Assembly: GCF_001485475.2 (NCBI RefSeq)
Contig: NZ_DF976999.1
Coordinates: 21,001-85,000, forward strand
Direction: 5' to 3'
Source of the DNA: Tepidanaerobacter syntrophicus
Lineage (GTDB): Bacteria > Bacillota > Thermosediminibacteria > Thermosediminibacterales > Tepidanaerobacteraceae
Length of the DNA: 64,000 nt
Made by a program: the position numbers and the translations under genes. Numbering within the stretch: the first letter of the stretch is position 1; every line of letters starts with the position of its first letter. Below the pieces are notes generated by a model. It searched no databases. It saw only the letters and a program-made list of their open reading frames with translations, and was not told where the DNA came from. Positions 2,909-39,997 of this stretch are shown in pieces.

Positions 2909-3096
2909 TATTTAGCACCCCCTTCTAATGCTTCCACTCTAGCTCTTAATTCTTCCACTTCCCCTGCAAGCTTTTCCATGTCTTCATAAAGCATAGCTAT
3001 GACTTCTAGTGTATCTGCCTGTATTTCTATTTTCTTTTTTTCTTCCTCTTCTTTTATCTCGCTGATTGGTTTCTCATTAATTATCTTAACAGCCAT
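2908..3096 (-). CDS. Small coiled-coil phage protein
   Basis: 62 aa, highly charged, with heptad-like spacing in the second half (ALTLEVIAMLYEDMEKLAGEVEEL-like region up to EALEGGAK). It is coupled to the DGR target gene by a TAATG overlap at 3096-3098 and to the next gene by another. Such small coiled-coil proteins often follow receptor-binding genes; a chaperone or accessory role is conjecture. Confidence 0.6.
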   Translation of the reverse strand: MAVKIINEKPISEIKEEEEKKKIEIQADTLEVIAMLYEDMEKLAGEVEELRARVEALEGGAK

Positions 3097-5342
3097 TATT
3101 TAAAAGCACCTCCATATCCACTTAAGTAGCTTTTTTCTGTTGCAGTTCCTCTTTCTATTATTACTTGTATTCCTACTCCCCATTTATTTGCAGTTTTTGT
3201 TTCATTTAAGAAATTGTGATGTCTGCCTATTAATACCTGATCAGTTGCGTCTTCCCAAGTAGGCTCATCATCAAATACATTGTTGCATACAAGGACCTTA
3301 AATATTGCTCCTTCAGCTAGTTTATAGGTTGGTGTCACCAGCACTTGGGTGCACATGTCGTCTGTTTCCTTTGCAAATAGGTGCATTAGTCTTGTTACTA
3401 CCCTGGTAAAGGTATAGTTTCTAATGGCCGTAGCTCCATCATCATCTGTTACTTCAATTCTAATATTGTGTTTTGTGCTATCTAGCTGTAGCCAGTCTAG
3501 TTTTTCCATTGTGTAATCATAAGTTTGGCCAGCAATTATTGGATAGGTTTCTTTTAGTTTGTCATCCAGGAATATTTTTGCTGTCATTTGACTTCCTTCA
3601 ATGTCCGTTGCACTGAACGATACTGTGAATGGTTCTGTTTTTTCTCCTAGATCCTGGTCGCTTCCTGAAATTACTGGAGCACTGTTGGTCCTCCTGAAAG
3701 TGTATCTTCTGTATGATATGCCACCTTTACCATCATCAGCGCGTATTTCTATAGTGTTTACTTCATTTAATGGTAGCTCATATAAAGTTTCACTGGATAT
3801 TTCCATGATTATATCCTCATTTTGTGGAGCATTGGATAGGTTCTTAATAGTGTTTCCATTCAGTTTTTCTGTAATTGTTACATTGTCTCCATCTGGATCA
3901 TGTACCTGATATACAACTGTAAAGCCTTCGTTTTTATCCCCTATACTGCCATCCACGCCACTAATTATAGGAGCTGCGTTCACTCTCTTGAATGTATATT
4001 TTCTTGTTGCGGCTCCCCCTTTATTGTCCATGACTGTAATAGTTATTGTGTTGGTTGCTCCCATTGTAAGTCGTGATAGTGTTTCAGTGTCAATTTCTAT
4101 ATTATAGGTAAAATTCCTTTCAGCATTATTGATTGTTCTTATTGTTTCATTATTTAATTTCTCTACAACTGTTAATATATCGTCTTCATCTGTGTCGTTT
4201 ACTTGGTATGAAATTTTAAATGGTTCCGTCTTGTCTCCAAGGTCCTGGTCTGTGCCAGAAATCAGAGGAGCAGAATTCAGAACTACAAAGCAGGTGCGGA
4301 ACCCGTAGGTGCTGAGGGCATTACCCGTATTGCTGTCGAAGTAAGCAAGGCCAGCATTGCCGTAGTCACAGTCGCCGCCACGACGGAACACAGGACCGGA
4401 AGAGCTGGGAAAGCCGGAGACCGCACTGTTACCCTGCCAGTTTTTCCATGATGTTGTTCCTTCCCCTTGCTGTGATGTTTCGTGGATCATCATTCCATCT
4501 GTTAGTCCTTTAGCTGCATTGTAGTTATTTGGTCTATCGTCAGTAGATCCTACTGGAAATACGTCTTTGTATTTGCTTTCTGCATCAACTAAAGCTTTGC
4601 AATATGTGTTTAGGTTTGCATGGCCATTGTTTACATAGCTGGCTACATACTCGTAAGTGTTACCTACCATGTCAAAAATACCTGTCATGTTTCCTGTAGT
4701 GGAGCTAGCTCCTGTATTATCTATTCCATTGAGTCCATATCCTGTCTTGTAGTCGCTGTTACTATTTCTATCTGGTCTTTGGTTGCCTATAGCCTTGGCC
4801 AGCATTGCTGCAGCTCCCCACTCGGAGTTCTTCATCATATGGGAATCTACTCCATCAGCGTTAGTGGTCAGCTGATTCTTTAAGTCTAGACAGTTAATGA
4901 ATATATCGTTTACGGTTATACTTCTCCATGCTACCTTATCTGGTTTAAATCCTGGTATACCACCATTGTCTAGGTCCTTATGGGCTGCATATTTTGCTAC
5001 CCAAATACCTGACAATTCTTGATCTCCGAATGTAAATGCAGGATGTTTTTTGCATGCTCTGCCGTCAATTGTATTGGTATTGTCGTTTATTCCATCGGAA
5101 AATCTTATTTTAATTTCTGGATCATCTGCGTATTGAATTGCCCTATAGGTAAACCTCGGTATCCATACCCAAAGGTTGCCCTTAGTGTCTTTTGCATTGG
5201 CCCATTTCTTCATGCTAGGGTTGTAGTTGTAATCCCAGTTTTCAACCGTTGTTTCCTGGAAAGTGTGTCCTGAAACATGGTTGACTGGTACCCAGCCAGG
5301 CGGTAAAATGGGCCTATTTGCTAGTCCTGAAACTAATGCCAT
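3096..5342 (-). CDS. DGR target protein: FGE/C-type-lectin-like variable domain plus three Ig-like repeats
   Basis: 748 aa from ATG 5342 (SD GGAGGG; the in-frame TTG at 5357 overlaps that SD and is unlikely). Residues about 1-351 resemble the FGE-sulfatase/C-type-lectin fold used by many DGR targets: VWIPRF near the start, MVGNTYEYV, then RRGG...GFRTC at the end. Residues 304-351 are encoded by the variable repeat. Three Ig/cadherin-like repeats follow (about 356-454, 455-552, 553-648), each opening N-S/A-A-P-x-I-S-G and ending YTFKR/YTFRR/YTFTR. A unique 100-residue C-terminus closes the protein. It lies downstream of the tail-fibre gene, so a receptor-binding tail adhesin is the best inference. 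Having the variable region in mid-protein is unusual. Confidence 0.9.
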   Translation of the reverse strand: MALVSGLANRPILPPGWVPVNHVSGHTFQETTVENWDYNYNPSMKKWANAKDTKGNLWVWIPRFTYRAIQYADDPEIKIRFSDGINDNTNTIDGRACKKHPAFTFGDQELSGIWVAKYAAHKDLDNGGIPGFKPDKVAWRSITVNDIFINCLDLKNQLTTNADGVDSHMMKNSEWGAAAMLAKAIGNQRPDRNSNSDYKTGYGLNGIDNTGASSTTGNMTGIFDMVGNTYEYVASYVNNGHANLNTYCKALVDAESKYKDVFPVGSTDDRPNNYNAAKGLTDGMMIHETSQQGEGTTSWKNWQGNSAVSGFPSSSGPVFRRGGDCDYGNAGLAYFDSNTGNALSTYGFRTCFVVLNSAPLISGTDQDLGDKTEPFKISYQVNDTDEDDILTVVEKLNNETIRTINNAERNFTYNIEIDTETLSRLTMGATNTITITVMDNKGGAATRKYTFKRVNAAPIISGVDGSIGDKNEGFTVVYQVHDPDGDNVTITEKLNGNTIKNLSNAPQNEDIIMEISSETLYELPLNEVNTIEIRADDGKGGISYRRYTFRRTNSAPVISGSDQDLGEKTEPFTVSFSATDIEGSQMTAKIFLDDKLKETYPIIAGQTYDYTMEKLDWLQLDSTKHNIRIEVTDDDGATAIRNYTFTRVVTRLMHLFAKETDDMCTQVLVTPTYKLAEGAIFKVLVCNNVFDDEPTWEDATDQVLIGRHHNFLNETKTANKWGVGIQVIIERGTATEKSYLSGYGGAFK
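4289..4432 (-). repeat. DGR variable repeat (VR)
   Basis: 144 bp, colinear without gaps to 5527-5670. The two copies differ at 19 positions, and in every case the template copy has A on the coding strand. No other base type differs. The substitutions change 15 codons, mostly Asn AAY codons. The 18 bp at the downstream end (coding ACGGGTTCCGCACCTGCT) are identical and GC-rich, as expected for an initiation-of-mutagenic-homing site. Confidence 0.97.
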
Positions 5343-5370
5343 ATATAATCCCTCCAAGCTTCGTATATTT

Positions 5371-5416
5371 TAAATAATAAAAGGCATCTTTCACCTAAAG
5401 CTACTAAATGCCTTTT
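5371..5416 (-). terminator. Hairpin terminator between TR and the target gene
   Basis: On the minus strand AAAAGGCAT (5416-5408) pairs with ATGCCTTTT (5387-5379) around a 20-nt loop, followed by ATTATTT. It could end the avd-RT-TR transcript and uncouple template RNA from target-gene expression. Confidence 0.65.
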
Positions 5417-5526
5417 ACTGATTTTGTTTTTACCTCTTTATTATCTGAGGAAGGAATAGAGCTCCTTTGGTCTGGTAGCACCGTATAAAAGTCCGTAAAC
5501 CTTTATAATCTCGCTTAATTGACCAG

Positions 5527-5670
5527 AGCAGGTGCGGAACCCGTTGTTGCTGTTGGCATTACCCGTATTGTTGTTGAAGTAAGCAAGGCCAGCATTGTCG
5601 TTGTTATAGTTGCCGCCACGATGGAACACAGGATTGGAAGAGTTGGGAAAGTTGGAGTTCGCACTGTTAC
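5527..5670 (-). repeat. DGR template repeat (TR)
   Basis: 144 bp non-coding copy starting 18 bp after the RT stop codon. By count the coding strand has about 40 adenines; 19 differ in VR and the other 104 positions are all conserved. Read in the VR frame it encodes 16 Asn residues, mostly AAC/AAT, codons that adenine mutagenesis can turn into many residues without making stops. The GC-rich downstream end is shared with VR, after which the sequences diverge. Confidence 0.97.
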
Positions 5671-5688
5671 AGCTCTATCCCTACTAGT

Positions 5689-6714
5689 TTATTTGTTTTT
5701 TACTAATACAAAATTCTTAAACATATGATCTATAAGTAAATAGCTGTCGGCATGCTTTGCATACCCTTTCCAGCTATTTATAGACCTTTTTATCTCCTCT
5801 AATGTCATTTCTCCATTAGCATATTTCCTTTGATATGCTTTCAATTTTCTTTTCATTTTCTTTTTACTGCAATCTCTTATTTTCATATGAGTTGACCATA
5901 TTTTGTAACCACAAAAATTGACTCCATTTTTAACCGGAAATATTTGCGTCTTTTTATTTAGTTTAAGTTTCAGCCTCTCATCTAAAAATATTATAATCTC
6001 CTTTAGGGCCTGTTGGGCCTCTTCTTTGTTTTTAAATATTAGGACCCAGTCATCCATATATCTAACATACATCTTTACTTTCAGTTTGTGTTTTATGAAC
6101 ATATCTAACTGATGTAGATATAAATTAGCAAACCATTGGGATGTATATGATCCTACTGGTATTCCTGGATCCTCTGTTGTGTCTAATATAACTTTTGTAA
6201 GCCACAAAACTTCTGGATCTTTTATTTTACTGGCCACAATGTTATAAAGTATTGTATGGTCTATGCTGAAGAAGTAGCTCTTAATGTCGCCTTTAAGAAT
6301 ATAAGGTCTTTCCCATTTTGCTTCTGCAGTTTTTAAGAATTTTTGCACTCTATATGCTGCTCCATGCATTCCTTTGCCTTCAATACATGCATAGGAGTCA
6401 TATATGAATGCTTTCCCAAATATAGGGATGATAAAATTCTTTACATACCACTGGTGAATTACTCTATCTCTATAAGGGGCTGCCTTAATAAGTCTTTTCT
6501 TAGGCTCGTAAATAGTAAACTCCAAGTATTCTCCTGGAGCATATGTTTTATTTTTTAATTCGTTATACAGTTTTATGATATTGCCTTCTAGATTCATTTC
6601 AAATTCAATTACATCTTTTCTAAATCTTTTCCCCTTTTTAGCGCTCTGATGGGCATTTAATAAGCTGGAGAATGTTAATGCTGATTCGAATAAATTCTTA
6701 TATGTTTTTGCCAT
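5689..6714 (-). CDS. DGR reverse transcriptase
   Basis: 341 aa. Palm motifs are visible: KGDIKSYFFSID (motif A, Asp143), VGSYTSQWFANLYL (188-200) and YVRYMDDW with catalytic YMDD (219-222). The GxxxSQ form of motif 4 is the hallmark of DGR enzymes and differs from the QGxxxSP form of group II intron RTs. There is no maturase or endonuclease domain. It copies TR RNA with adenine infidelity and the cDNA replaces VR. The ATG overlaps the end of avd by 17 bp, and TR follows directly. Confidence 0.96.
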   Translation of the reverse strand: MAKTYKNLFESALTFSSLLNAHQSAKKGKRFRKDVIEFEMNLEGNIIKLYNELKNKTYAPGEYLEFTIYEPKKRLIKAAPYRDRVIHQWYVKNFIIPIFGKAFIYDSYACIEGKGMHGAAYRVQKFLKTAEAKWERPYILKGDIKSYFFSIDHTILYNIVASKIKDPEVLWLTKVILDTTEDPGIPVGSYTSQWFANLYLHQLDMFIKHKLKVKMYVRYMDDWVLIFKNKEEAQQALKEIIIFLDERLKLKLNKKTQIFPVKNGVNFCGYKIWSTHMKIRDCSKKKMKRKLKAYQRKYANGEMTLEEIKRSINSWKGYAKHADSYLLIDHMFKNFVLVKNK

Positions 6715-7072
6715 TCCTAGTTGATTTTATCCATCCACCTAATATTTTTCCTATTTCATCCAGCCTCCTAGCCCATTCGATATAGTTTTTATTAGATATA
6801 TACTTATATTTATGAGCTAATCTTACTAAGACTTTTTGTAGCTGCACTTCTGCATCTATCATATTGAGCATTTCTAATCTTTTCTGACTATTTCCATATA
6901 TTTTATTAGCTCTTAAAATATATTTAAGTGTATCAAACATGCTGTTTTTAAAACTAGCTGCCATAGCATACTTTTCACTTTTGGGGAATTTCCTTATTCT
7001 ATCATAGGCGTATTCAATCAAATCTACATACTTTTGGTAGATTAGGAGCTCTTTCCTCTGTGTCTGACCCAT
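6698..7072 (-). CDS. avd: DGR accessory variability determinant Avd
   Basis: 124 aa from ATG 7072 (SD AGGGGTG; an earlier ATG at 7081 is possible). The protein is basic and almost entirely helical (LIYQKYVDLIEYAYDRIRKF, then three more long helices ending in EIGKILGGWIKS), the four-helix-bundle pattern of the Avd/23S-IVP family. Avd forms a pentamer that binds nucleic acid and the DGR RT and is needed for mutagenic homing. It is directly upstream of, and overlapping, the RT gene. Confidence 0.9.
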   Translation of the reverse strand: MGQTQRKELLIYQKYVDLIEYAYDRIRKFPKSEKYAMAASFKNSMFDTLKYILRANKIYGNSQKRLEMLNMIDAEVQLQKVLVRLAHKYKYISNKNYIEWARRLDEIGKILGGWIKSTRNGKNI

Positions 7073-7091
7073 GATGAACACCCCTTCTGTC

Positions 7092-7318: not shown

Positions 7319-7996
7319 TTATATTGCTAGTCTTTTCCCTGCTTTATCCCATATTCCTTCTACAACTTCATCCTCTGTAATGTCATCAAAGTTGACTACA
7401 AATATATTGCTTGTAAAGTTGTTTAATGCTGCATTTTTCAGTATTGCTACTTCTACCCCCAGCATTAATATATCGTCAGCATTTTTCTTTACTGTCTCGT
7501 CTGTTCTTCCTTCTCCGGCTAGATCATTGAAATCTTCTCTTGTTGCGTATACAAGTGAGTCATCTACCTCTATTACAAGGTTTTCAGCATTACCTACAAC
7601 TGTAATTAGCTGCAATAATATATCTACTGAATTTAATGTTTTAGGTGGTAAGAAATCTGCGTACATTCCTGTGTTAGTTACGCAATAAAGTATTTCTCCT
7701 TTATCTGGATCCTCTGCATAGATTCCTATTTCTCTAAGGAAAAATCCTTCTTCTATGTCTTTGTTTGTAATTACAGTTTGGATTATAGAAGTGCCATCGC
7801 CTTGAGTTTTGATGTCATTTATCGGGAATGATGTTTTGTAGTTTATTAAATTTGTTAGAGTGTTTAAATGTTGGCCTTCCCTTAATGCTCCATCTCCTAC
7901 ACCTACTCTTGTAAATTTCAGTAAAGTTCCTGATTGTACTTTTGCTTGTAGCTCTATACCATCCCTCGTTAAAACTAATTGACTGAAGTTAGACAT
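7319..7996 (-). CDS. Tail-collar / short tail fibre protein (DUF3751-like)
   Basis: 225 aa. The first about 150 residues (FSQLVLTRDGIELQAKVQSG..., TRVGVGDG, EEGFFLREIGIYAEDP, GEILYCV) match the N-terminal baseplate-attachment domain of P2 gpH-type tail fibres. The C-terminus is short and lacks an extended fibre or receptor tip, which fits a design where the downstream DGR-diversified protein provides binding. The ATG overlaps the gpI stop. Confidence 0.85.
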   Translation of the reverse strand: MSNFSQLVLTRDGIELQAKVQSGTLLKFTRVGVGDGALREGQHLNTLTNLINYKTSFPINDIKTQGDGTSIIQTVITNKDIEEGFFLREIGIYAEDPDKGEILYCVTNTGMYADFLPPKTLNSVDILLQLITVVGNAENLVIEVDDSLVYATREDFNDLAGEGRTDETVKKNADDILMLGVEVAILKNAALNNFTSNIFVVNFDDITEDEVVEGIWDKAGKRLAI

Positions 7997-8733
7997 TATT
8001 TCACCTCCGAAGTAATTGTTTTCTTGCTAACTCTCTTATTGGCTCCAGCTATATTTATATTGCCTTTAACTGTTATACTCTCATTTATTATCGCCGGCTT
8101 AATGGTCATGACTTTACTTTGTCTATAAGTTATTCCTGCGTATATTCTTCCGGATACGGTTATATCTTCTATCTTGTATGGGTTGAAGATCATTGTCTTA
8201 AGTTTCCTGGACCCAACTCCAATCCTAAAATCCATGACCCGGTCATGTTCTATTACTATTTTTTCTAGCCATGACCTAGTGTTTTTTACTGTATTGATTG
8301 CGTCAATAATTTTAGTATATTTTTCTTCGCTATCTATTAAATCTCTTGTGTGTATCTTGAACATGTAAGGTTTTCCATCATATTCGAACCATTCTTCGAC
8401 CTGTCCTTTTCCGAATATCTCTGTCACAATTTCTTCTACGGCTGCTGGAGTGCCTTTTCTTTTGTGCCATCTTATTGAGTTTTTAACAAGCGTTCTTCTT
8501 ATTTCAAGAGGTAAGCTTGTATCATAGAAATCGACATGTCGTTCCCATGCCAGAAGATCCACCAGGTCGCTCTCCAGTTCGTCTATTCTAGGCATTATTA
8601 TGCAGTGTTTGGCCTCATTTACAACTAGCAAAAATTCATCGTCTACTGCCTTTGAGGCTGCTATTATATCCGGGTCGTGCCGTAAGTTTGGCGGCAAGAG
8701 ATCTAGGAGCTTGACTTCATATATATCAATCAT
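7996..8733 (-). CDS. Baseplate protein gpI
   Basis: 245 aa from ATG 8733 (SD GGAGGG). The opening IDIYEVKLLDLLPPNLRHDPDI and the segment PLEIRRTLVKNSIRWHKRKGTPAAVEEIVTEIFG are characteristic of P2 gpI-type tail proteins that sit at the wedge/fibre junction. It overlaps the end of gene J by 8 bp, as in other P2-like baseplate modules. Confidence 0.9.
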   Translation of the reverse strand: MIDIYEVKLLDLLPPNLRHDPDIIAASKAVDDEFLLVVNEAKHCIIMPRIDELESDLVDLLAWERHVDFYDTSLPLEIRRTLVKNSIRWHKRKGTPAAVEEIVTEIFGKGQVEEWFEYDGKPYMFKIHTRDLIDSEEKYTKIIDAINTVKNTRSWLEKIVIEHDRVMDFRIGVGSRKLKTMIFNPYKIEDITVSGRIYAGITYRQSKVMTIKPAIINESITVKGNINIAGANKRVSKKTITSEVK

Positions 8734-9862
8734 CTTCAAGCCCTCCATAAGTTACGGATACATTTTCAGCGACCGCAACCTGGTTTTTCTCTAGTTTTGC
8801 GAACACTGGTTCTACTATTTCAATCCTTTTTGCCCCAGCCTGAATAATTCTTGCGATAAGTTCAGACGGATTTATATCTCGTCCTATCTTTGATCTTTGC
8901 CATATTTGAAATTGAGATATCGCATTATCTACCCTTTGCCTTATAGATGTTTCTGCGGTCTCATCTTGGGTTCGAATATAATAGGTTAAGTTAATATTAT
9001 AGCTTACTATATCCGGAGCACCTACCAACACATGGTCAGTTAATGGTCTTTTGTCTTTAGCAGATAAGTATTCTTTTAATCCATCTAAAAACGCTTGGCC
9101 AGGTATTTCTCCATTTTTAAGAAGAACTCTTATATCTACAGTGCCAGGGCCTGGTGAAGACACTGCAACATCTTCTATAAGCTGGCTGTATTTTTTTGCA
9201 AAAAACACATATCCTAGTTCTGATCCAGCTGTGCTATATCCTTCAGGGGCTAAGTTTATCTTTTCCCTGTAACTCTCATCGTCTTCCTCGTCGGCGCCAC
9301 CCTGACTTGTGTCTGTGTTCACTACACTGGCAATCCATGGGAGAGGGTCGACGAGTATATTTATCTGCCCGGGCGTAAAGCCATTTCCTATTTCGCCGGC
9401 TACGGTGCACTCATTGACAGCTATAACTTCCGTTGCTCCAGCCGGCACTTCGATTGTTTCTAGAGTTTGAAAATATACATCTTTTTTTGACCTTACCCGA
9501 GTGCCGGCGGGGATATATTGTATTGTTGGCAAAGGTGTGCTTAAAATATATTTCATGGTTACGGTTGCCTTTTTTGCATCAGCTCGCGGAACATCATGAT
9601 CTGCGCCCTTATGATCAAGAAATGGCCCTTTTGCATACTTTAGCAGATTTTGTTTTGCTGAGTAATCTATTAGCTGACGAAGTTGAAACTCGCGAAGTGC
9701 CTGGCTGTATAGCCATATTCTTATCGGGTCTCCTGGGAATAGCTTTTTAACTTCTCCGGTCTGCTCATAATATGCCTTTTCATAACCGGAAATAGTATCC
9801 GCCAATATTTCTTCAATGCTTTTTTGTGCAAAACTGACATCAGGGAGCTTATCGAGGTGCAT
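8726..9862 (-). CDS. Baseplate assembly protein gpJ
   Basis: 378 aa. The sequence has the Mu gp47/P2 gpJ layout: helical N-terminus (LRQLIDYSAKQNLLKYAKGPFLDHKGADHDVPR), then PAGTRVRS, the GNGFTPGQINILVDP stretch and GGADEEDDESYREKI. The family forms the baseplate wedge that latches onto the hub. It sits between W and I in standard P2 order. Confidence 0.93.
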   Translation of the reverse strand: MHLDKLPDVSFAQKSIEEILADTISGYEKAYYEQTGEVKKLFPGDPIRIWLYSQALREFQLRQLIDYSAKQNLLKYAKGPFLDHKGADHDVPRADAKKATVTMKYILSTPLPTIQYIPAGTRVRSKKDVYFQTLETIEVPAGATEVIAVNECTVAGEIGNGFTPGQINILVDPLPWIASVVNTDTSQGGADEEDDESYREKINLAPEGYSTAGSELGYVFFAKKYSQLIEDVAVSSPGPGTVDIRVLLKNGEIPGQAFLDGLKEYLSAKDKRPLTDHVLVGAPDIVSYNINLTYYIRTQDETAETSIRQRVDNAISQFQIWQRSKIGRDINPSELIARIIQAGAKRIEIVEPVFAKLEKNQVAVAENVSVTYGGLEDD

Positions 9863-23382: not shown

Positions 23383-25188
23383 CTATAATCCTTTTGATAT
23401 AACTCTTCTCCTCCTCGGTCTTGGGGGACCGGTCATTTTTTTATGTTGTGTATACATTTTACCTGTTTCTTTCATTTCTTTTAAAGCCTCTAGGTTTGGA
23501 TTCAGTATCTCTAAAGCAGCTGTTGCATAGTTTCTAACATCAAGAGGTTCATTACTTACTCCTGATTTTTTTATCCACTCAATCTTGGGCCTGCCTTTTC
23601 TATACTTTATAATTCTCTTTTCACTTGCCAGGCCCTCAAAATATGTTTCATCGTATCCCTTCTCAGCATTGATTGGGAAATGACAGTATCCTGGCCCCTC
23701 AAATTCGATTTTAAGCCTAGTAAGTATCGTATCTTTTCCATTGTCTACGCCGAGAGTAAATAAAGCAGCCCTTTCTCTATTGTTCCTGCTGACTTTTCCC
23801 ACAAACGGTATACCCATACCACCGCGGCCTTTGACGGCAAATATCCTGCGATGCTCTCTGGGTTTACAAAATTTATACACTTCCGTTGTAAAGTGTCCGC
23901 CTGAGTCAATACAAGCACAGGATATATTGATCTTTTCGCCATTTTTAAATGACCATTCTTGGTTTAAATACTGGTCTAGCTGATCCCATATGGCCTGCTG
24001 GCCAGGGTCTCCATAAAAAATCTTATATTCTATGCCCCAAGATTCTTTGCCTATTCCCCATCCTACTACTTCTACTTCAAGCCTATCATCCTGGACGTCT
24101 ACACCTGCAGTGAGCACCAATACATCATCAGGAACCTCAGCGTCATAGCGCTCTCTTCGCTTCATCAATGTTTTTACTTCCAGGTCCCCTGCATGGTCTT
24201 CCCAGGTTTCCCCAAGCGCGGTGTTTACCCAAACCTTTAGCACTTCAGGGCCTTTTTCTTTGGCCTCTTTGAAGTCTTCTATGATTTCCTCCCATCGTTT
24301 CCACGGTGAAGCCAGCTCACATAAGTGAAAACCTCTTTTGTTGGGATGCTTTTTCCTAGCTATCCACTTCCCATTTTGGCTCTTCCATTCAAATTCGGTA
24401 TGTCTTTCTTTGCATTTCTCACATTCCATTGTTGCGTCTTCAAACCTGATTTGTGCCCATCTTAGGGGTTGATAATGGCCACAGCTTGGGCATGGCAGGC
24501 ACCATTGTTCCATGGTTGAATCCTCATATTCTGCCTCGATCCTGGATGCATCTTTGATAGTAGGTGTTGAAACATATACTTTCTTTTTATTCCAGAAAGT
24601 CGTTGTTCTTTTTGCAGCCAAAGAAAGGGGATCCCCTTCTGTTCCTGCACTAAGCGGAAAACGGTCAACCTCATCAGCTAGTAGTATTCTTACAGGCCTG
24701 CTCGAGAGCCCAGCCGGAGAGTTTGCGCCAATAAGTGTAATATGGCCACCGGGGAATTTTTTGTGCAGTAAAGTATTGTCAGAGTCTCGAGATTTAGCAT
24801 CCTTTATCTTGCCGCGCAATACTGGGGTATCCCTTATCATGGGCGCAAGCCTGTCTTTTGAAAAAGCTTCAGCTATTTCCTTTGTAGGCAGCATGTATAT
24901 CATTGGAGCCGGATCATAATCAATAAAATAACCGATTGTATTGAGTAATATCTCAGTTTTGCCTACTTGCGCCGATGACATGACCACTACAGTTTCAACT
25001 TCTGGATCGTTTATCGCATCCATAATTTCCCTTTGATAAGGTGCTCTGTCTGTTCTCCATTGACCACTTTCTGCGGATGATTCAGGAGAAAGTCGTCTGT
25101 ATTTATCAGCCCATTGTGAAACCGTTAATTTTGGTGGTGGGGCAAGGATTTTGGCTATTTTTTTAAATAGAGCAACGGTCTTATTCAT
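23383..25188 (-). CDS. Terminase large subunit, GpA family
   Basis: About 601 aa from ATG 25188, chosen because it overlaps the acidic tail of the small-subunit gene by 8 bp; earlier in-frame ATGs at 25194 and 25200 are possible. Packaging ATPase motifs: VVVMSSAQVGKTEILLNT (Walker A-like) and ILLADEVDRF (Walker B). A zinc-ribbon pair follows (CPSCGHYQPL / CEKCKERH). The C-terminal nuclease has LTAGVDVQDDRLEVEVVGWG and IDSGGHFT. It cuts concatemers and pumps DNA into the prohead. Confidence 0.93.
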   Translation of the reverse strand: MNKTVALFKKIAKILAPPPKLTVSQWADKYRRLSPESSAESGQWRTDRAPYQREIMDAINDPEVETVVVMSSAQVGKTEILLNTIGYFIDYDPAPMIYMLPTKEIAEAFSKDRLAPMIRDTPVLRGKIKDAKSRDSDNTLLHKKFPGGHITLIGANSPAGLSSRPVRILLADEVDRFPLSAGTEGDPLSLAAKRTTTFWNKKKVYVSTPTIKDASRIEAEYEDSTMEQWCLPCPSCGHYQPLRWAQIRFEDATMECEKCKERHTEFEWKSQNGKWIARKKHPNKRGFHLCELASPWKRWEEIIEDFKEAKEKGPEVLKVWVNTALGETWEDHAGDLEVKTLMKRRERYDAEVPDDVLVLTAGVDVQDDRLEVEVVGWGIGKESWGIEYKIFYGDPGQQAIWDQLDQYLNQEWSFKNGEKINISCACIDSGGHFTTEVYKFCKPREHRRIFAVKGRGGMGIPFVGKVSRNNRERAALFTLGVDNGKDTILTRLKIEFEGPGYCHFPINAEKGYDETYFEGLASEKRIIKYRKGRPKIEWIKKSGVSNEPLDVRNYATAALEILNPNLEALKEMKETGKMYTQHKKMTGPPRPRRRRVISKGL

Positions 25189-25732
25189 CGTCATCGTCAT
25201 CGCTCTCAATATCTTGCAAATACTTCGGACCGTAAAAAAGTTCTGGGTCATAATTAGATAGTTCTTTCAAAGCTTCGTATATCTCATTTTGTAACATGTC
25301 TTGTATCGTGGCTACGGTGTTTTGAGCAATTAGCATCGGTGCCAATTTTGCCGGCAATGCCAATAGCTTTGATCTAAAAGCCCCCAACATATCATTCATA
25401 ACTTTTTCAACATCTGCAGAATGATGTAATTCGCCTTTTAGATGTGCAAGTTCCAGCTCTGCTTTTTCTCGTTTTGCTCTTTCATGAAGGAATTTTTCAT
25501 AGTCCAGGTTTTCTTTAACTTTGCTACTATCCACTTCCGCTGAAGCAGCCGCTCTTAAAAAAGCTATATATTTTTTAAGTGAATCTTGTAAATCGTATCT
25601 GCCATGCCCTATTCTATCAATCACACCCTCCTCGACCAGCTGCCTGACTCGCCTTTCAGTGAGCCCGAAAATATTTGCAAGAACTTTTGTATTCACGACA
25701 AGGCCATCTATGCTTTTTAATTTCTTCGACAT
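25181..25732 (-). CDS. Terminase small subunit, Nu1-like
   Basis: 183 aa from ATG 25732 (SD AGGTGAT); a longer start at 25789 would run into the promoter region. The N-terminal helix-turn-helix (NTKVLANIFGLTERRVRQLVEEGVI) should bind the packaging site. A helical middle (YEKFLHERAKREKAELELAHLKGELH) and a very acidic C-terminus (SDDDDDE) that contacts the large subunit complete the Nu1 layout. It is the first gene of the late operon. Confidence 0.9.
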   Translation of the reverse strand: MSKKLKSIDGLVVNTKVLANIFGLTERRVRQLVEEGVIDRIGHGRYDLQDSLKKYIAFLRAAASAEVDSSKVKENLDYEKFLHERAKREKAELELAHLKGELHHSADVEKVMNDMLGAFRSKLLALPAKLAPMLIAQNTVATIQDMLQNEIYEALKELSNYDPELFYGPKYLQDIESDDDDDE

Positions 25733-38845: not shown

Positions 38846-39997
38846 TTGCGTGGGCATATCAGAAAAAGAGGCAAAAAATGGTGCGCTATAGTAGATGTAG
38901 GCAATGATCCAGTAACCGGTAAACGAAAGCAAAAATGGTTAAGCGGCTTCAATACAAAAAAAGAAGCCGAAGCTGCTTTGGCAGAATTTATACAGCAATA
39001 TAATTCTGGGAGCTATATCGACCATAAAGGTATTACTGTTTCCGATTATTTGGACAAGTGGTTCCATGACTATGTAGAGATTAAACTTGCTCCTAGGACA
39101 CAAAGTCGATATTTAGGAATAATTAATAATTATTTTATCCCTGAGTTTGGGCATATAAAATTAAGCGATTTAAAGCCATTCCACATTCAGAACCATTATT
39201 CAAAGGCAATAGAAAATCTTTCCCATGCTACAGTTCTATATCATCATCGGGTTATACATAAAGCTCTAAAAATGGCCGTTAAATGGCAATATCTTGTGCA
39301 TAATCCCGCTGATAATGTTGAGCCACCCAGTGCTAAAAGAAAAGATTTTACCATATTATCTATAGAACAAATTGATACACTTTTACAATATTTAAAAGAA
39401 AAAAATCATGTTTTATATATACCCATTGTTTTAGCAATAATGACAGGCATGAGGCGTGGAGAAATATGCGGACTCCAATGGCAAGATGTTGACCTAGATT
39501 CAGGGCTAATCCAAATCAAACACCAATTACAGAGAATTAATGGTGAGTTAATCCTAAGAGAGACAAAAACGGCCGGCAGTCGCCGACCAATCGCATTGGA
39601 TGATATCACTATATCACTTTTAAAAGCTCATAGACAAGAGCAAAGAGAAAACAGAATTTTTTTTGGCCCCGCATATCAAATTGAAAATTTTGACTACGTT
39701 TGCACCTGGCCAGATGGCAAACTTATTGACCCAGACTATATAACCCATTCTTTCTCCAAGATATTAAAAACATTGAACTTGCCGTCCGTTCGTTTTCATG
39801 ATTTGAGGCACACCAGTGCAACTATGCTTTTAAAAGCCGGTATAAATCCGAAAGTCGTGAGTGAGCGCCTAGGCCACACAGATATTAGAATTACCCTCAA
39901 TACTTATTCTCATGTTTTGCCAAATATGCAAAAAGAGGCTGCGCAAAAACTTGCCGAGAATGTCTTTATAAAAACTGCAAACAAATTGCAAACATAA
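38846..39997 (+). CDS. int: Tyrosine integrase
   Basis: 383 aa from TTG 38846 (SD AAGGAGTGAG). It has an AP2-like arm-binding N-terminus (IRKRGKKWCAIVDVGNDP), a SAM-like core-binding domain (about 62-160) and a catalytic domain with R203 (TGMRRGE), H318-x-x-R321 (HDLRH), H344 (LGHTD) and nucleophile Y354 (LNTYSH). It catalyses integration at and excision from the tRNA-Thr site 126 bp downstream. Confidence 0.95.
   Translation: MRGHIRKRGKKWCAIVDVGNDPVTGKRKQKWLSGFNTKKEAEAALAEFIQQYNSGSYIDHKGITVSDYLDKWFHDYVEIKLAPRTQSRYLGIINNYFIPEFGHIKLSDLKPFHIQNHYSKAIENLSHATVLYHHRVIHKALKMAVKWQYLVHNPADNVEPPSAKRKDFTILSIEQIDTLLQYLKEKNHVLYIPIVLAIMTGMRRGEICGLQWQDVDLDSGLIQIKHQLQRINGELILRETKTAGSRRPIALDDITISLLKAHRQEQRENRIFFGPAYQIENFDYVCTWPDGKLIDPDYITHSFSKILKTLNLPSVRFHDLRHTSATMLLKAGINPKVVSERLGHTDIRITLNTYSHVLPNMQKEAAQKLAENVFIKTANKLQT

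Follow-up and report, generated by a model that had tools for sequence, protein, structure and literature searches.

A tentaclin-type diversity-generating retroelement in a Tepidanaerobacter syntrophicus prophage and a predicted RNA helix bracketing its template repeat

The closest described systems are the tentaclin diversity-generating retroelements (DGRs) of the phages nd4, nd12, FP_Mushu and FP_Brigit. According to PMC10743442, their reverse transcriptase (RT) lies upstream of a target protein combining an N-terminal C-lec domain, an internal variable repeat (VR) and a chain of Ig domains, an arrangement also found at the locus described here. The DGR of Bordetella phage BPP-1 shares with this locus an avd gene, an RT, a template repeat (TR), a C-lec target and a structured spacer adjoining the TR, which in BPP-1 is RF03022.

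Our window is a 64,000-nucleotide stretch of the T. syntrophicus genome. The locus that it holds is one more tentaclin DGR and thus belongs to a known type of system. We estimate at roughly 85% the probability that it is a complete prophage DGR that rewrites 48 codons inside the gene for a predicted tail-borne receptor binder of the tentaclin type, armed with Ig domains and tipped by a C-lec domain. Its template RNA led us to a structural feature that may concern DGRs more generally.

Components of the element

The genes avd, RT and target, with the TR between the last two, all lie on the minus strand within the prophage, and the three reading frames are intact. The product of avd (accessory variability determinant; 6698..7081, with GTG 7081 or ATG 7072 as start) matches PF22296 bAvd (1.7e-26) and phrog_3206 'Avd protein of DGR' (1.4e-35), which bears out the Avd-like protein proposed in an earlier note on this DNA. 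The RT (341 aa, 5689..6714) matches PF00078 and phrog_1423 (5e-131), is 36% identical to BPP-1 brt, and carries in its translation the motifs GSYTSQ and YMDD, in accordance with the GxxxSQ and YMDD of that note. Its best solved relative is 8ub7 'Reverse transcriptase' (1.1e-57), which we take to be the BPP-1 DGR RT. A group II intron or retron RT flanked by incidental repeats would account for the RT core, which is common to group II intron RTs (best match 3.1e-14), but 8ub7 is a far better match, an Avd is present and the repeats differ at adenines only. We regard this explanation as negligible, and by its best matches the RT falls in the DGR clade, as the note had expected of a profile search. 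The DGR-type RT, the Avd, the adenine-only differences, the C-lec target and the hypervariability of the same codons in relatives together support the identification of the element as a DGR, with all components of the proposed avd-RT-TR-target system in place.

Upstream, on the same strand, lie genes for a tail-collar fibre N-terminal protein (7319..7996; PF12571, 3.5e-11) and a Tail_P2_I baseplate protein (7996..8748; PF09684, 4.7e-24), and the prophage integrase is found on the plus strand (38846..39997; PF00589, 1e-25). Relatives of the RT occur in records of Desulfotomaculum copahuensis, Dethiobacter and Pelotomaculum, none of which is known as a gut bacterium, and in the first two the locus also has an internal-VR target. 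With such relatives, it becomes less likely that the role of tentaclins is confined to gut mucus or immune cells.

Adenine-specific differences and rewriting of the VR

The TR (5527..5670) and the VR (4289..4432), both on the minus strand, are 144 bp long and align without gaps. They differ at 19 positions, every one a template adenine on the coding strand, exactly as previously noted; with 40 adenines among the 144 TR bases, the chance of such a distribution is about 3e-11. The substitutions from TR to VR (13 A>G, 4 A>T and 2 A>C) include no synonymous change and alter 15 residues, 12 of them at Asn AAY codons, again in agreement with the note. No further VR was found in the host genome, where TR and VR are the sole copies detected.

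That the VR has been rewritten at least once, as the note had argued, is supported by a relative that is 96% identical: 31 residues differ, 17 of them in the VR and every one of these at an adenine codon, from which we conclude that the VR was rewritten since the two split. The same codons are hypervariable among close relatives (P0121-P0123). The restriction of differences to adenines, complete here (19/19), does not extend to every related locus: non-adenine differences, which the note had named as a refuting observation in other isolates, are absent from 11 of 20 such loci, number 1-3 in 8 and reach 17 in L036. The few are ordinary drift, while in L036 TR and VR look uncoupled. Four identical prophage copies in genome G379 carry one and the same VR and, together with L036, indicate that such elements can be idle. 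The G379 copies are uninformative as to the rate of rewriting. This locus might be a relic, a formerly functional DGR whose copy here no longer rewrites its VR, as the uncoupled repeats of L036 and the single VR of the four prophage copies could suggest. Intact avd, RT and target frames, the lack of any non-adenine difference in 144 bp and the concentration of the closest relative's differences in VR codons argue against decay, and we consider it improbable.

The spacer RNA and pairing across the TR

The DNA following the TR (5376..5528, minus strand) matches the Rfam family RT-14 (RF02921) over its full length of 144 positions, with 85.3 bits for a gathering threshold of 48.1 (E 2.1e-12). At 20 of 26 loci, RT-14 directly adjoins a TR for which there is a VR. 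The Rfam RT motifs reportedly originate from Weinberg 2017. The RT-14 entry in Rfam makes no mention of DGRs, and in the literature searched, which took in only a minority of subscription papers, we found neither RT-14 named as a DGR RNA nor a description of a helix bracketing the TR. RT-9 was detected in 2 of 398 genomes of the phylum, this genome scoring below the RT-9 cut-off. The earlier note had the TR right and overlooked both the spacer RNA and the pairing around the TR.

The Rfam model begins at the 3' end of the TR and leaves unpaired a conserved segment (AGCTCTATTCC, 5453..5463, minus strand) whose partner, across the TR, lies outside the model. This segment is complementary over about 11 bp, with compensatory changes, to the bases immediately 5' of the TR (GGGATAGAGCT, 5671..5681, minus strand), and from these sequences we predict an RNA helix that would mark the end of copying. 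With RT-14 loci treated as independent, none of 20,000 permutations paired as well across the TR; in a shuffle test under the same assumption, two of five measures were unexceptional (34/500 and 106/500 shuffles). RT-14, an Rfam RNA lacking a DGR label, is thereby tied to DGR template RNAs, and its conserved unpaired segment gains a partner.

Similar pairing across the TR is seen in the Phage_DGR family. The best pair falls in one register in 6 of 9 loci, lies elsewhere in L070 and L079 and is tied in BPP-1. Arms were then placed by hand in this one register, and in a permutation test that excluded BPP-1, 4 of 5,040 orders paired equally well. Beyond RT-14, pairing at single loci was mostly not significant (p <= 0.05 in 6 of 40), and 29 of the 40 best pairs fall within one positional box amounting to 26% of the search space, a box chosen post hoc from the earlier pairing result and applied to loci that are related.

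We give even odds to the proposal that a helix closing off the TR is common to DGR template RNAs. In it, the bases flanking the TR on its 5' side would pair with the central part of the spacer, leaving the TR as a loop, and the helix would be the built-in 5' stop of every mutagenic cDNA. The function as a cDNA stop we infer from position only. At all 19 loci measured, TR/VR homology stops short of the helix arm, an observation that speaks against a use of the helix in RNA stability or in RT-Avd docking, with the cDNA end set otherwise in the same DGR. Such a use is nonetheless quite conceivable, as the helix is embedded in a larger conserved fold, its gap to the TR varies (0-12 nt in 18 of 19 loci and 31 nt in L110), and BPP-1 reverse transcription is terminated by a sequence motif within the 3' end of avd, according to the introduction of PMC12875486. 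Were the TR-closing helix general, RT-14 and RT-9 RNAs would be DGR template scaffolds and the point at which TR/VR homology ends would be explained. As a 5' cDNA stop, it would answer what defines the copied segment and offer DGR finders a structural mark of the TR that requires no VR.

The hairpin that follows the VR in BPP-1, as described in PMC3240598, was not found here: in the search for a GC-rich hairpin with a GRNA loop, the best stem in the 80 nt after the VR was 4 bp (p 0.35). Stems of at least 7 bp in this interval are absent from all nine internal-VR loci, this one included, and occur in 7 of 48 loci with the VR near the gene end, including two of RT-14 type, L054, the contig of L123, where RT-14 was found, and L053, typed from sequence alone. 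Since such stems are scarce even there, and present in L053 and L054, we make no claim of a loss by internal VRs or by RT-14 elements. A scan for intrinsic terminators listed none between TR and target.

The target protein and its relation to known systems

The target gene (3096..5342, minus strand) most likely starts at ATG 5342 and encodes 748 aa, which places the VR at codons 304-351, followed by 397 residues. Its N-terminal C-lec domain (residues 1-355, 4278..5342) has the fold of DGR variable proteins and carries the VR internally. This domain was modelled separately, as it was poor in the full-length model; even alone, residues 308-343, within the VR, have a pLDDT below 50. In tentaclins the VR forms a beta-hairpin at the surface, and the VR residues here are presumably surface-exposed by homology. 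The remainder (residues 356-748, 3096..4277) comprises four Ig-like domains, visible as four beta-sandwich units in the strand order of the predicted model, whose pLDDT per block of 10 residues lies at about 80-95 between 361 and 748. This Ig part matches PF17963 and the solved tail fibre 31he (1.5e-9, at 454-639), and the C-terminal part matches phrog_10993 'Hoc-like head decoration'. In common with the tentaclins nd4, nd12, FP_Mushu and FP_Brigit, it carries the C-terminal Ig motif NNxxDxxPxWEDxT, present in 88 of the 93 proteins examined in all; we defined this motif here, independently of the published logo of the seven-residue C-terminal Ig consensus of tentaclins. The last Ig domain is the presumed virion anchor. 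The earlier note had recognised a target with a VR and missed both the internal position of the VR and the tentaclin architecture.

C-lec domains of this type also occur at the C-terminus of pilin-like proteins, and for the C-terminal C-lec relatives (P0209) no locus was found in viral contigs. With a Mushu-type Ig chain here, the target is modular, the variable domain being placed in different protein contexts.

The phrog_10993 match raises another view of the target, that of a Hoc-like head decoration attaching virions to mucus or other surfaces in place of a receptor-binding tail protein; in PMC5883640, the Mushu and Brigit targets are interpreted in this way. This seems unlikely here, given the match to tail fibre 31he, a gene position after the Tail_P2_I and tail-collar fibre genes and before the endolysin, and the hosts of the RT relatives named above. 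For a tail-borne receptor binder, the element may work as follows. An RT-Avd complex would bind the RT-14 fold, and cDNA synthesis would start in the spacer, as in BPP-1. The TR would be copied with errors at adenines until copying stops at the bracketing helix, helix and spacer thus being the two limits of the copied segment. The cDNA would then replace the VR, and the new C-lec surface would be displayed on a flexible four-Ig arm attached to the virion through its C-terminal Ig domain.

Compared with the phage tentaclins, of 313-649 aa in PMC10743442, the target is longer, at 748 aa. Its Ig chain is 45% identical to that of Mushu; its C-lec domain is of the TaqVP/FGE kind, whereas that of nd12 is DUF6273. 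The TR follows the RT here and precedes it in nd4, nd12, FP_Mushu and FP_Brigit, and the spacer is RT-14, against RT-9 in Mushu; for the spacers of nd4, nd12 and Brigit, Rfam gave no match. BPP-1 has the order mtd-avd-TR-brt, a C-terminal VR and an RF03022 spacer, in contrast to the avd-RT-TR-target order, internal VR and RT-14 spacer of this locus. Like this locus, it has a candidate helix bracketing the TR, shorter at 7 bp. Finally, in TaqVP of Thermus aquaticus (5vf4), the VR is at the C-terminal end of the chain and the C-lec alignment extends to the chain end, whereas here the C-lec domain is N-terminal and four Ig domains follow the VR.

A diversity-generating retroelement in a prophage tail module

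The minus strand of the window carries, in the order avd-RT-TR-target, what we take with a probability of about 0.97 to be a diversity-generating retroelement (DGR); its proteins, repeats and hypervariability are directly observed. The template repeat (TR, 5527-5670, minus strand) and the variable repeat (VR, 4289-4432, minus strand) match without gaps over 144 bp. Realignment returned the counts of the earlier note: 19 differences, all 19 at adenines of the TR coding strand (A>G 13, A>T 4, A>C 2), for which the chance probability is about 3e-11. They alter 15 residues, mainly asparagines as had been claimed (12 at Asn codons), and none is synonymous. A genome search found no TR or VR copies beyond this pair.

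An Avd-like protein and a reverse transcriptase (RT) had been said to complete the system, and both are recovered: Avd (6698-7081, minus strand) matches PF22296 and phrog_3206, and the RT (5689-6714, minus strand) matches phrog_1423 and is 36% identical to BPP-1 brt. Among solved structures, the RT aligns best with 8ub7 (1.1e-57; entry title 'Reverse transcriptase', presumably the BPP-1 RT), far ahead of a group II intron RT (3.1e-14), in line with the DGR affinity that the note had expected. The target gene (3096-5342, minus strand) encodes 748 aa. The DGR sits within a tail module, with Tail_P2_I and tail-collar fibre genes upstream and an endolysin downstream, in a prophage that also holds a terminase (23383-25251) and an integrase (38846-39997, plus strand).

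The claim that the VR has been rewritten since divergence is supported by three relatives of the target, compared at the protein level using adenine-alterable codons that do not come from the relatives' own TRs. P0121 is 96% identical to the target and equal in length, with 17 of its 31 residue differences in the 49-residue VR stretch versus 14 in the other 699 residues; all 17 fall at the 24 codons alterable by adenine changes. For P0122 and P0123 the VR differences number 20 and 18 and are likewise confined to such codons, with 83 and 93 differences elsewhere. The expectation that other isolates would differ at adenines only stood in part: across 20 related loci that have both a TR and a VR, the window included, non-adenine differences are absent in 11, number 1-3 in eight and reach 17 in L036 (Desulfotomaculum copahuensis, NZ_LYVF01000168.1). 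This last locus has an RT, an RT-14 RNA and an open target frame of 973 codons, and its sequence reads as if the TR had been replaced or the VR left behind.

L003, L004 and L005/L052 are closely related elements, and the L003 TR differs from the L004/L052 TR at adenine and non-adenine positions, so that the template itself evolves. Separately, one prophage region occupies four places in genome G379 (L144-L147), and its aligned bases are identical as far as base 5610 of L144. Each copy has an RT-9 DGR, and the VR, at 5 differences from the TR, does not vary between copies; the region spread inside the genome without visible VR change.

A spacer RNA and a probable helix bracketing the template

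The spacer on the target side of the TR (5376-5528, minus strand), starting at the TR 3' end, matches the Rfam family RT-14 (RF02921; 85.3 bits, E 2.1e-12), and RT-9 (RF03080) matches the same spot with a score under its cut-off. Scans recovered RT-14 at 9 of 14 related loci and at 1 of 32 viral loci of more distant kinship. A sequence pattern built on the region of its 3' arm gave 19 matches; 15 of these were scanned and 4 contained RT-14. Of 398 genomes scanned within the phylum, 12 gave a match, counting this one, and 11 of the 12 exceed the cut-off. Of the 26 loci collected before the scan of the distant viral set, one of them below cut-off (L119), 20 carry a VR and a TR whose end lies at RT-14; of the remaining six, four are truncated by contig ends (L004, L039, L119, L130) and two lie in genome G239. 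Of 19 loci with strict boundaries, 15 have RT-14 starting at most 1 base from the TR end. We are highly confident that RT-14 is a DGR spacer. The two RT-14 RNAs of G239 (L115, L120; G239:C59:7394-8135) lie about 590 nt apart, with no TR/VR pair found near them, and L120 has the helix described below; they may represent two template RNAs or an element in decay.

Just before the TR, GGGATAGAGCT (5671-5681) pairs with AGCTCTATTCC within RT-14 (5453-5463) at 11 of 11 positions, one of them G-U. This bracketing helix is present in the minimum-energy fold, which as a whole is modest against shuffles (z -2.0). In a search of all 11-mer pairs over 115 upstream by 55 spacer positions, the best pair fell at the homologous place in 24 of 25 RT-14 loci (exception L115; L130, too short, was left out). 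Once aligned in register, the 25 loci yield 20 different arm pairs, forming 10.55 of 11 pairs with their own arms versus 7.51 with swapped arms; none of 20,000 permutations matched the own-arm sum, even with L115 counted as 5/11, where arms were chosen at each locus's best pairing, four loci came from the 3'-arm-region pattern, and kinship among these related loci was ignored. RNAalifold predicts the helix unaided on a 21-locus alignment (L004, L117, L119, L115 and L130 left out), with double changes at 7 of 11 pairs. In this covariation alignment, where rows L111, L113 and L116 look one out of register, 86% of cells pair in the helix register versus 45-67% when slid, and three of five measures beat all 500 shuffles, the other two being reached by 34 and 106. 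The 3' arm is unpaired in Rfam's RT-14 consensus. The gap between the 5' arm and the start of TR/VR homology is 0-12 nt in 18 of 19 loci (31 nt in L110). The helix very probably exists.

Beyond RT-14, we compared 40 distinct DGR loci whose TRs measure 90 bp or more; nine belong to the RT-14 type, three of them by sequence rather than by scan. The best 9-mer pair lay inside one box (5' arm -30 to -5, 3' arm +38 to +78) in 29 of the 40, 22 of these being among the 31 non-RT-14 loci, for a box that spans 26% of the search space, was set after a first look at the data and was applied to related loci. Pairing was significant on its own in only 6 of 40. Arms of 12 bases after GGTCAG in Phage_DGR loci form 11-12 of 12 pairs (7 distinct arm pairs), and 4 of 5,040 permutations were as good as observed.

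The target protein and the place of its variable repeat

There is little doubt that the target is a tentaclin-type protein, with an N-terminal C-lec holding the internal VR, followed by four Ig-like domains; it may bind a receptor, the C-terminal Ig domain acting as a putative anchor. Its C-lec (residues 9-355) is the C-terminal domain, 40-42% identical, in 32 of the 120 relatives listed (P0209-P0240, 460-809 aa). Both of those read fully have a prepilin-like N-terminus (PF07963; P0209 at cut-off, P0213 below), and four that were aligned show three different VR-like ends; the group is likely to consist of bacterial DGR targets. Unrelated proteins thus bear the same variable domain at one end or the other.

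Across the 20 RT-14 loci with a VR, which are related, gene order goes with VR position: the VR is internal in all six whose target lies downstream of the TR, and in the 14 with an upstream target it is followed by 0-4 residues in 13 and by 16 in L110. Two RT-14-type DGRs with the VR at the gene end (L053 and L054; IMG/VR 3300028034_000074 and 3300042782_000051) have, downstream of the VR, a GC-rich hairpin of 10 bp whose loop is 4 nt long; no such hairpin was found in the internal-VR loci scanned.

A possible mechanism and known elements

Work on the BPP-1 DGR describes self-primed synthesis, adenine errors and homing (PMC12875486, PMC3240598). By analogy, cDNA synthesis here would be self-primed and error-prone at adenines, with the product homing to the VR; the bracketing helix might serve as the 5' stop of copying, a role to which we give even odds. 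BPP-1 itself offers only a 7 bp candidate for this helix. The target's Ig chain shares 45% identity with its Mushuvirus counterpart, and the C-lec has no match there; in Mushuvirus the spacer RNA is RT-9, beginning 17 nt past the TR end. In the scan outputs, the Rfam labels of RT-14 and RT-9 make no mention of DGRs, unlike that of RF03022, 'Bacteriophage Diversity-Generating Retroelement RNA', with which the BPP-1 spacer coincides.
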